The position numbers and the translations under genes were made by a program. The notes under the pieces were generated by a model that did not search any database, was not told the origin of the DNA, and saw only the letters and a list, made by a program, of their open reading frames with translations. Shown one piece after another: positions 19,355 to 21,857 of a DNA stretch of 64,000 nt. Every line of letters begins with the position of its first letter. Position 1 is the stretch's first letter. Source of the DNA: Burkholderia cepacia GG4 (lineage in GTDB: Bacteria; Pseudomonadota; Gammaproteobacteria; Burkholderiales; Burkholderiaceae); the NCBI RefSeq assembly GCF_000292915.1, contig NC_018514.1:186001-250000 (forward strand), in the 5' to 3' direction.

Positions 19355-20596
19355 ATGAAAGTATCGGCAGACATTCGTGCATTGATCGAGCGACGCAAGG
19401 AAGGCTACAGCCTCGAGGCGCCGTTCTATACGAGCGAGGAAATCTTCGCCCTCGACATGGAGGCGATTTTCCGCCAGCACTGGATCCAGGTAGCGGTCGA
19501 ACCGGACATTCCGGAGCCGGGCGACTACGTGACCGTGGAACTGGGCAGCGACTCGATCCTGATCGTGCGCGACGACGACATGGAAATTCGTGCGTTCCAC
19601 AACGTGTGCCGTCACCGCGGCGCACGCCTGTGCAACGAAGACAAGGGCTCGGTCGGCAACATCGTGTGCCCGTACCACAGCTGGACCTACAACCTGACGG
19701 GTCAGCTGATGTTCGCCGAGCACATGGGCGAGAAGTTCGACCGTTGCAAGCACAGCCTGAAGTCGGTGCACGTGCAGAACCTCGCGGGCCTGATCTTCAT
19801 CTGCCTCGCCGAGGAGCCGCCGGTCGATTTCGCGAAGCTGCGCGCCGAGATGGAGCCGTATCTGCTGCCGCACGATCTGCCGAACACGAAGATCGCCGCG
19901 CAGATCGACATCATCGAGGAAGGCAACTGGAAGCTCACGATGGAGAACAACCGCGAGTGCTATCACTGCGTCGCGAACCATCCTGAACTGACGATCTCGC
20001 TGTACGAATACGGCTTCGGCTACCAGCGCTCCGACGCCAACGCCGAAGGCATGGACGCGTTCGCGGAAACGTGCGTGCGGCGCGGCAAGGAGTGGGCCGA
20101 GATGGGCCTGCCGTCCGCCGAAATCGAAAAGCTGCTCGACGTGACGGGCTTCCGCACGCAGCGCCTGCCGCTCGACCGCCACGGCGAATCGCAGACGCTC
20201 GACGCGAAGGTCGCCTCGAAGAAGCTGCTCGGCCAGTTCGACCAGGCCGATCTCGGCGGCCTGTCGTTCTGGACGCAACCGAACTCGTGGCACCACTTCA
20301 TGAGCGATCACATCGTGACGTTCTCGGTGATTCCGCTGTCGGCCGGCAAGACGCTGGTGCGCACCAAGTGGCTCGTGCACAAGGACGCGAAGGAAGGCAT
20401 CGACTACGACGTGAAGAACCTCACGGCCGTGTGGAACGCGACCAACGACCAGGATCGCGCGCTCGTCGAATTCTCGCAGCGCGGCGCGACCAGCAGCGCG
20501 TATGAGCCGGGCCCGTATTCGCCGTACACGGAAGGTCTCGTCGAAAAATTCTCGGCCTGGTACATCGGCCGGCTCGCCGAAAAGACCGGCGCGTAG
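19355..20596 (+). CDS. gbcA: Glycine betaine monooxygenase, Rieske oxygenase subunit
   Basis: A 413-residue Rieske non-haem iron oxygenase. The 2Fe-2S ligands are C85-x-H87 and C105-x2-H108 (C-R-H-R-G-A-R-L-C ... C-P-Y-H-S-W-T-Y). The mononuclear iron site lies in E-N-N-R-E-C-Y-H-C-V-A-N-H. It hydroxylates a methyl group of glycine betaine, giving dimethylglycine and formaldehyde, and needs reductase GbcB. The chosen ATG at 19355 follows CCGGAGCAAACG; a longer open frame to the left overlaps etfB. It lies 52 bases past the ETF pair, so it may share or follow their transcript. Confidence 0.95.
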   Translation: MKVSADIRALIERRKEGYSLEAPFYTSEEIFALDMEAIFRQHWIQVAVEPDIPEPGDYVTVELGSDSILIVRDDDMEIRAFHNVCRHRGARLCNEDKGSVGNIVCPYHSWTYNLTGQLMFAEHMGEKFDRCKHSLKSVHVQNLAGLIFICLAEEPPVDFAKLRAEMEPYLLPHDLPNTKIAAQIDIIEEGNWKLTMENNRECYHCVANHPELTISLYEYGFGYQRSDANAEGMDAFAETCVRRGKEWAEMGLPSAEIEKLLDVTGFRTQRLPLDRHGESQTLDAKVASKKLLGQFDQADLGGLSFWTQPNSWHHFMSDHIVTFSVIPLSAGKTLVRTKWLVHKDAKEGIDYDVKNLTAVWNATNDQDRALVEFSQRGATSSAYEPGPYSPYTEGLVEKFSAWYIGRLAEKTGA

Positions 20597-20622
20597 TAGC
20601 ACCCAGTACTGAAGCGGAGTCA

Positions 20623-20712
20623 ATGATGAAACAACCCCCACGCTCACTTCGTTCGCTGCCCCCCGTGGGGGCGGCCAGCCTCCTTGGGGCGGCCCTGCGG
20701 AGGCTGGCATGA
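20623..20712 (+). CDS. Putative leader peptide ORF ending in a stop/start overlap with gbcB
   Basis: An open frame of 29 codons (28 if the second of two adjacent ATGs at 20626 is used) follows GGAG at 20616-20619, 6 bases from the second ATG. It begins MMKQPPRSLRSLPPV and ends in TGA at 20710-20712, overlapping the gbcB ATG at 20709. The DNA can form two hairpins: CCCCCACG/CGTGGGGG (20635-20671) and CCAGCCTCC/GGAGGCTGG (20675-20707). The gbcB ribosome-binding site GGAGG (20699-20703) lies inside the second stem, so leader translation could open it. The sequence also resembles a dispersed GC-rich repeat common in Burkholderiales, so it may be a mobile repeat that happens to be in frame. Confidence 0.5.
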   Translation: MMKQPPRSLRSLPPVGAASLLGAALRRLA

Positions 20713-21857
20713 TGCGAGATGCGGCCACTTTCGAGCCGGCGGACAGCCGGGTCACACACCCGGCGTTCTGGAACGCGCTGCCCGAGCGCTGGACGAGCGA
20801 CGTCGAGGAAACGCTGGTGTGCTGCCACGTGCGGCAGGAAACCCACGACGTGAAGAGCTTCTTCTTCCGTTCGCCGCAAGGCCGTGCGTTTTCCTTCGAG
20901 CCCGGGCAGTTCATCACGCTCGAGCTCGACATCGAAGGCGAGACGATCAACCGGTGCTACACGATCTCGTCGTCGCCCGCGCGGCCGCACACGATCTCGA
21001 TCACGGTCAAGCGCGTGCCGGGCGGCAAGGTGTCGAACTGGCTGCACGACAACCTGCAGCCGGGCGCGTCGGTTCGCGTGCTCGGCCCGGCCGGCGAATT
21101 CACGTGCGCGCGGCATCCGGCGCGCAAGTACCTGTTCCTGTCGGCCGGTTCGGGCGTGACGCCGCTGATGTCGATGAGCCGCGCACATCATGATCTCGCC
21201 GAGGATCGCGACATCCTGTTCGTGCACAGCGCACGCACGCCGGACGACATCATCTTCGCACGCGAGCTCGACCTGATCGCGTCGAACCATACGAACTTCC
21301 GCACGTCGTTCGTCGTCGAGCGCGTCGGTGCCCGCACCAACTGGCCGGGCGTCACGGGCTTCCTGACGCTGCCGCTGCTGAAGCTGATCGCACCGGACTT
21401 CATGGAGCGCGAGATCTTCACATGCGGCCCCGCGCCGTACATGAAGGCCGTGCGCGACCTGCTCGACGAAGCCGGCTTCGATCGCAAGCAGTATCACGAG
21501 GAAAGCTTCTCGTTCGAAACGCTCGCGCAGACCGCGAGCGACGACGTGCTCGCCGAACTCGTGCCGGCGGCCGACGGCGGCGACCTTGCGACGAAGCAGT
21601 ACACGGTCAGCTTCGCGAAGAGCAATCGCGAAATTGCGTGCGGCTCGGAGCAGCACGTGCTCGACGCGGCGCGCCAGTCCGGCGTGCGGCTTCCCGCCTC
21701 GTGCACGCAGGGCATGTGCGGCACCTGCAAGGTGAAGCTCGTGTCGGGGCAGGTCGAGATGAAGCACAACGGCGGCATCCGCCAGCGCGAGATCGACCAG
21801 GGGATGGTGCTGCTGTGCTGCAGCAAGCCGCTGTCGGACCTCGTGATCGACAAGTAG
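20709..21857 (+). CDS. gbcB: Glycine betaine monooxygenase, reductase subunit
   Basis: A 382-residue flavin reductase with an FAD-binding barrel (R-C-Y-T-I-S-S-S-P near residue 82), an NAD-binding domain (S-A-G-S-G-V-T-P-L-M-S-M), and a C-terminal plant-type 2Fe-2S ferredoxin domain with C-T-Q-G-M-C-G-T-C and a later C-C. It passes electrons from NAD(P)H to GbcA. Two ATGs (20709 and 20712) are adjacent; the first overlaps the stop of the leader ORF, and its GGAGG is in the 3' arm of a hairpin. Confidence 0.94.
   Translation: MMRDAATFEPADSRVTHPAFWNALPERWTSDVEETLVCCHVRQETHDVKSFFFRSPQGRAFSFEPGQFITLELDIEGETINRCYTISSSPARPHTISITVKRVPGGKVSNWLHDNLQPGASVRVLGPAGEFTCARHPARKYLFLSAGSGVTPLMSMSRAHHDLAEDRDILFVHSARTPDDIIFARELDLIASNHTNFRTSFVVERVGARTNWPGVTGFLTLPLLKLIAPDFMEREIFTCGPAPYMKAVRDLLDEAGFDRKQYHEESFSFETLAQTASDDVLAELVPAADGGDLATKQYTVSFAKSNREIACGSEQHVLDAARQSGVRLPASCTQGMCGTCKVKLVSGQVEMKHNGGIRQREIDQGMVLLCCSKPLSDLVIDK

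Follow-up and report, generated by a model that had tools for sequence, protein, structure and literature searches.

The gap between gbcA and gbcB in the 64,000-nucleotide stretch of Burkholderia cepacia GG4 analysed here (the window) is one copy of an 83-bp dispersed mobile element and not an operon-specific control point. With a probability of roughly three in four, the element is a small mobile unit of about 83 bp placed at sense stop/start junctions of co-directional genes, whose leader ORF hands ribosomes on, by way of a hairpin, to the gene that follows.

The features of the site are collected in Table 1. By NCBIfam the neighbourhood comprises etfA-like, etfB-like, gbcA, gbcB, and a choline-binding transport protein, every match lying under the curated cut-off. 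The leader starts at the ATG at 20623 or at 20626 (ATGATG) and translates as MMKQPPRSLRSLPPVGAASLLGAALRRLA; its TGA (20710-20712) overlaps the gbcB ATG at 20709, giving a -4 spacing. A preliminary description of this DNA had reported the ORF of 28 or 29 codons with a GGAG upstream and a TGA overlapping the gbcB ATG, and two hairpins with the gbcB GGAGG inside a 9-bp stem; the coordinates were re-read and are correct on all these points. Taken on its own, the anatomy in the window could be chance, fold energy and open-frame rate being too weak as evidence: the folding energy of 20580-20740 has z = -1.28, and 22 of 200 shuffles are at least equal. What raises it above chance is that it recurs, with 113 full-length copies counted over the same-genus loci fetched, and that the stems covary.

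Table 1 Parts of the gbcA-gbcB junction, in positions of the window.
Feature	Position	Strand	Remarks
gbcA, glycine betaine monooxygenase oxygenase subunit	19355..20596	+	Upstream gene; NCBIfam NF058607, E 4.4e-141, under curated cut-off
GGAG	20616..20619	+	Precedes leader ORF; native gbcB Shine-Dalgarno by comparison with element-free near relatives
Leader ORF	20623..20712	+	29 codons plus TGA (28 from 20626)
83-bp dispersed unit	20626..20708	+	Start codon to base preceding next start codon; basis, nhmmer unit and tandem period 83
Hairpin 1	20656..20674	+	20656-20663 with 20667-20674; little covariation (2 double-sided cells)
Hairpin 2	20675..20707	+	Outer 9-bp stem 20675-20683 with 20699-20707; inner GGG/CCC about 20686-20688 with 20693-20695
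Conserved core CTTGGGGCGGCCCNGCGG	20683..20700	+	Exact matches in other genomes of order and family
GGAGG, element-supplied gbcB Shine-Dalgarno	20699..20703	+	In 3' arm of hairpin 2 stem
gbcB, glycine betaine monooxygenase reductase subunit	20709..21857	+	Downstream gene; NCBIfam NF058606, E 1e-123, under curated cut-off

The element is dispersed within and beyond the genome. With the 93-bp stretch as blastn query, nine places were found in the own genome at E <= 1; three besides the window span nearly the full query at 93, 92, and 78%, and the weakest, of 18 nt, is probably chance. At E <= 1e-6 a match is present in 39 of 41 same-genus genomes (own included), with up to 15 per genome. The 80 further stretches fetched are a subset, namely the better and mostly near-full-length ones among the matches listed. 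Iterated nhmmer on 118 loci yielded 137 matches, of which 113 are full length, and defined a unit of 83 bp that runs from an ATG to the base before the next ATG; of the 136 units with an assigned length, 96 measure 83 nt, several other lengths being artefacts of the start rule, and 25 further units carry none. Among 120 genomes of the order, 6 contain an exact match to the 18-nt core, under five family codes; among 120 of the family, 14 do, in 3 of the 25 genera, own genome included in each count; a reversed-core control pattern gave 0 matches in the same two genome sets. Fourteen plasmid or megaplasmid records carry the core (Burkholderia, Paraburkholderia, Variovorax, Acidovorax, and Azoarcus).

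The same element precedes many unrelated genes. In Burkholderia 25 downstream genes were listed, or 22 once three near-duplicate pairs were merged by eye. Going by N-terminal sequences, we take the genes that the element precedes to include hslR, murC, ddl, gmk, dcd, and xdhC. Between annotated co-directional coding sequences it is found in an Azoarcus record (kinase and cheB) and a Variovorax record (gnd and zwf); in a Paraburkholderia record it lies between sdhB and sdhE, the leader being annotated as the start of SdhE. Three more records bear no annotation at the element; among them, one from Burkholderia stagnalis adds another filled site at gbcB. Copies read as part of a protein were also seen: in the own genome (L006 1501-1569) a related copy between an ABC ATPase and its permease forms, by an in-frame reading, the N-terminus of the latter, and in the Acidovorax temperans plasmid pEP1 (L323 1398-2660) a copy lies within the annotated phosphoglycerate kinase (pgk) coding sequence, apparently as an in-frame internal insertion. 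Arrays of two or three leaders in tandem were seen at L021, L027, L029, L125, and L141, most new leaders beginning at the stop of the preceding one. Tandem periods are 83 (four times), 82, 84, and 78 in Burkholderia (seven pairs); 83 (twice) and 82 in g89; 81 (twice), 80, and 82 in G089; and 108 (four times), 111 (four times), 117, and 116 in G123. At L094, L194, L229, L232, L235, L244, and L245 a nested hairpin module of about 48 bp (e.g. GACCGGAGTT...ACTCCGGTC) lies within the repeat, giving 131-nt units in which the frame is kept.

Filled and empty versions of one junction were compared for two gene pairs. For gbcA-gbcB, 80 of 322 confirmed loci were kept; with L105, a stretch without gbcA, dropped, 79 relatives were counted beside the window. 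The preliminary description had proposed looking for retention of the element across this gap; it is present in the window and 9 of the 79 relatives and absent from 70. One of the 70 empty loci, L093 (Paraburkholderia silviterrae), has a gap of 318 nt that holds another insert, with ends that by eye look inverted; the junction therefore accepts more than one kind of insert. Near relatives with an empty site read GCGGAG, about 6 nt, ATG; of the 10 filled loci, window included, 9 retain, as seen by eye, the GCGGAG ahead of the leader ATG, the Trinickia locus L094 being without it. This places the insertion point precisely between the native Shine-Dalgarno and the ATG. On a quick tree of the 80 gbcAB loci, presence and absence require 10 changes, no fewer than with shuffled labels, and at least seven gains or losses are forced by well-supported branches. 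For hemH-hslR, 41 matches gave 30 loci, of which 28 were read by eye (L307 and L313 left out; L305 and L312 classed as empty by eye); 16 are filled and 12 empty, with the same kind of insertion as at gbcB. Ten of the 12 empty sites have 2 or 5 nt separating the TGA from the ATG, and the typical filled layout is TGA-N-ATG, unit, TGA-N-ATG; shortened or rebuilt copies of 59 to 134 nt retain a coupled junction at their end (frames by eye). No consistent target-site duplication was seen in a non-systematic inspection by eye.

The leader ends at a coupled junction in most copies. By script, the leader stop of the 113 full-length copies is at -4 in 78, one base ahead of the ATG in 4, and 16 nt within the gene in 7; the other 24, without a coupled stop by script, include in-frame fusions, copies with the ATG missing at one end, and type-2 variants read one base off. 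Read by eye, the type-2 copies L175, L188, and L191 also end at -4, and type-2 copies combine a 1-nt loss with a compensating 1-nt gain, so that the frame is regained. As a raw count, 22 of the 25 listed downstream genes begin with ATGA. At the other end, 63 of 89 distinct flanks have an upstream stop no more than 5 nt from the leader ATG, and a loose purine-rich site before that ATG is present in 46 and absent in 43 of the 89. Variant leaders of 59 to 137 nt mostly keep an open frame through to the junction. Across its three frames the junction GGAGGCTGACATGA gives a stop that overlaps the start, a stop before the start, or an in-frame fusion. Length changes among the units are not all multiples of 3, and length modulo 3, considered as proof of coding, is only suggestive, since all three frames yield a workable junction. 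Dispersed repeats that happened to land in frame had been offered as an alternative in the preliminary description; this had the nature of the element right and understated it, as a coupled start is, in most copies, built into the junction that comes with the repeat.

The peptide itself is not conserved and is under no visible selection. Interior stops in the leader frame occur in 2 of 97 distinct units versus 11.8% of dinucleotide-shuffled units, a modest deficit; about 88% of the shuffled units are stop-free in this frame, and an open frame this long is common in such GC-rich DNA. Distinct changes in three parts of 75 distinct units give pN/pS of 1.25, 0.97, and 1.07. An amino-acid-sensing leader peptide was rejected on this basis (no conserved peptide; pN/pS 0.97-1.25), and operon-specific attenuation was rejected on presence and absence, tree, and pN/pS. 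Translational control specific to gbcB by a regulatory leader, the operon control point of the preliminary description, has the anatomy of the gbcA-gbcB site in its favour, and we give it hardly any credence: most relatives are without the element, its occurrence is scattered on the tree, the same element stands ahead of many unrelated genes, and its peptide is unconserved.

The sense-orientation rule is firm in Burkholderia, weaker in other groups, and reversed in G123. By a codon-score gene caller, 74 of the 77 distinct core-bearing Burkholderia copies lie in sense between co-directional genes, 3 inside a sense ORF, and 0 antisense. A strict flank test in Burkholderia gave 14 distinct sites, all sense, a strict lower count since tandem copies can merge sites. 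A site-level sign test for orientation was discarded as circular, the sites having been picked by their downstream ORF, and the orientation claim rests on the 77-copy gene-caller count. Outside Burkholderia, where tandem copies were counted singly, the layouts are: g89, +E+ in 29 of 38 copies (4 -E-, 1 -E+, 4 inside ORFs); g101, +E+ in 5 of 5; G158, +E+ in 4 of 6 (1 -E+, 1 +E-); G133 and G060 jointly, 4 +E+ and 2 -E- of 6; G089, 11 +E+, 10 +E-, and 6 inside, of 27 copies; G123, 13 -E-, 5 -E., 1 +E+, and 3 inside, of 22 copies. On the opposite strand of G123, 8 of the 12 loci listed (L202, L215, L226, L228, L283, L285, L286, and L287) have an ATGA or GTGA overlapping the upstream stop; six of these (not L202 and L287) show, by eye, an open frame of 38 to 113 codons across one to three tandem copies, which passes the G-rich site and ends at a stop overlapping the next ATGA or GTGA. 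The remaining loci L207, L211, L284, and L288 do not fit the coupled layout. In G089 (L269-L282 and other loci) the repeat was seen after gene ends, often ahead of a convergent gene, and may have another role there; as the next gene is convergent in 10 of the 27 copies, coupling to a downstream gene is impossible as the role of the repeat at these places.

The hairpins covary, and the ribosome site lies in the hairpin with nearly all of the signal. In 32 aligned non-redundant units with 20 named pairs, 93.4% of cells are paired; 30 double-sided changes were counted versus 6.4 in shuffles (0 of 500 shuffles as high; slid controls 4-8), 28 of them in hairpin 2, which holds the GGAGG, and 2 in hairpin 1. 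Of 97 distinct units, 91 carry a GGAGG no more than 13 nt ahead of the next ATG, 2 have a GGAG instead, and 4 have neither. The predicted opening of the gbcB Shine-Dalgarno is 0.24 in the 10 filled loci versus 0.51 in the 70 empty ones. In a crude opening model, in which the RNA upstream of -13 was removed as a stand-in for a ribosome at the leader stop, predicted opening rose by >0.1 in 4 of the 10 filled loci (the window, from 0.17 to 0.65; L056, L061, and L094), was about unchanged in 3 (L050, L051, and L053), and was lowered in 3 (L052, L059, and L071), where we take gbcB bases to be able to pair with the Shine-Dalgarno instead. The predictions argue for burial of the Shine-Dalgarno and, in part only, for its opening by a leader ribosome. 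Covarying hairpins on the sense strand, and G089 copies that follow gene ends, would also suit an element of RNA stability, processing, or attenuation between cistrons, whose hairpins would set mRNA ends or differential decay, the ORF being incidental. We consider this improbable: such a role needs neither a built-in ribosome site nor a stop/start overlap, no terminator-like site lies on the + strand at 20400-20900, and a search of 20000-21500 against Rfam 15 gave 6 matches at E up to 10, the best at 24.7 bits versus 62 needed, and none at gathering score.

Translational coupling is the best reading of the element, since melting of the stem by a ribosome on the leader would agree with the anatomy, which is found again ahead of many unrelated genes. 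As proposed, the old ribosome-binding site, or a ribosome finishing the preceding gene, would now start the short leader ORF; the ribosome translating it would melt hairpin 2, which would otherwise hide the element's own GGAGG, and would terminate at the stop overlapping or touching the next start codon; the next gene would still be translated, by re-initiation or by a new ribosome. The element can probably insert without silencing the next gene. The melting of the stem and exposure of the gbcB site, which the preliminary description had put forward, accord with the anatomy and with its recurrence; the outcome of the opening model is mixed (4 of 10 loci). Judged from the arrangement of the parts, the leader is likely to be translated, and gbcB may depend on it. 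Survival of harmless insertions, and not regulation, would then lie behind the pattern; selection for harmless insertion would account for both the turnover of the element and its neutral peptide.

A selfish palindromic repeat with no translational role, moving as a DNA hairpin, could leave much the same picture, the sense junctions being survivors and the frame open from GC-richness. That 77 Burkholderia copies are sense without exception, that a GGAGG stands ahead of the ATG in nearly all units, that the reverse-strand copies of G123 share the coupled layout, and that frames are restored in type-2 copies makes this unlikely, even with the high open-frame rate of the shuffles, the pN/pS of about 1, the rapid gain and loss on the tree, the G089 copies outside junctions, and the mixed opening model on its side. 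The coupling reading can be carried further, tentatively and at somewhat less than even odds, to a natural mobile bicistronic-design cassette: a self-contained ribosome-passing module with a three-frame junction, used on either strand according to lineage, and for that self-containment able to spread through operons of several families of one order.

Among known systems the element appears to work like the mycobacterial MIRU, a comparison drawn from published description. In a 2025 review MIRUs are short and apparently mobile repeats whose sites of insertion are start codons and whose own ORF becomes coupled, at -4 nt, to the gene targeted, the expression of which is probably little affected; the review also sets out RNA-unfolding and ribosome-scanning models of coupling [PMC12548453]. 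Mobile insertion at start codons is seen here in the filled and empty gbcB and hslR sites and the scattered gbcAB tree, and the internal ORF at -4 spacing in 78 of 113 full-length copies, coupling being the likely consequence. Tandem copies are a feature of MIRUs; they occur here too, with the Burkholderia periods given above. The element differs from MIRUs in its phylum, in its presence in several families of one order, with the opposite strand used in one genome, and perhaps in its two hairpins, one of them containing the Shine-Dalgarno. In bicistronic design (BCD) a single promoter serves two cistrons, and the Shine-Dalgarno of the second is placed within the 3' end of the first, which is short [PMC5995908]; the 3' end of the leader here likewise carries the Shine-Dalgarno of the next gene, whereas BCD is man-made and the element is a natural repeat with a conserved hairpin.

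Other repeats are less alike. REP/RAYT systems have a linked tyrosine transposase. The GTAG- and CGTC-tagged REP are, from what was available of their description, dispersed palindromes near genes, some supplying the stop codon of flanking ORFs [PMC3733652]; the consensus unit here is without GTAG or CGTC (by eye) and is directional, with a start codon and a ribosome site. The words Burkholderia, Ralstonia, Cupriavidus, and Betaproteobacteria are absent from the main text of that paper. Enterobacterial RU are small mobile repeats that can form fusions between their reading frames and other ORFs [PMC2759123]; the main text of that paper makes no use of the terms Shine-Dalgarno, ribosome binding, and start codon. 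Among the papers listed by the literature searches no description of the repeat in Burkholderiales was found, a search with letters of the element listing two unrelated papers, and PMC2755013 and PMC2864759, as far as their text was available, are not relevant to it.

If the coupling reading is true, the MIRU trick, in which coupling conceals a mobile repeat placed at a start codon, would exist outside mycobacteria, with a structured ribosome site added, and a recurrent GC-rich repeat of Burkholderia operons would be explained. It would also call for caution where leaders of this kind are taken for regulators of a single gene or are annotated as extensions of an N-terminus, the latter seen in Paraburkholderia sdhE, and the many natural pairs of filled and empty sites would be available for measuring the effect of coupling on expression.
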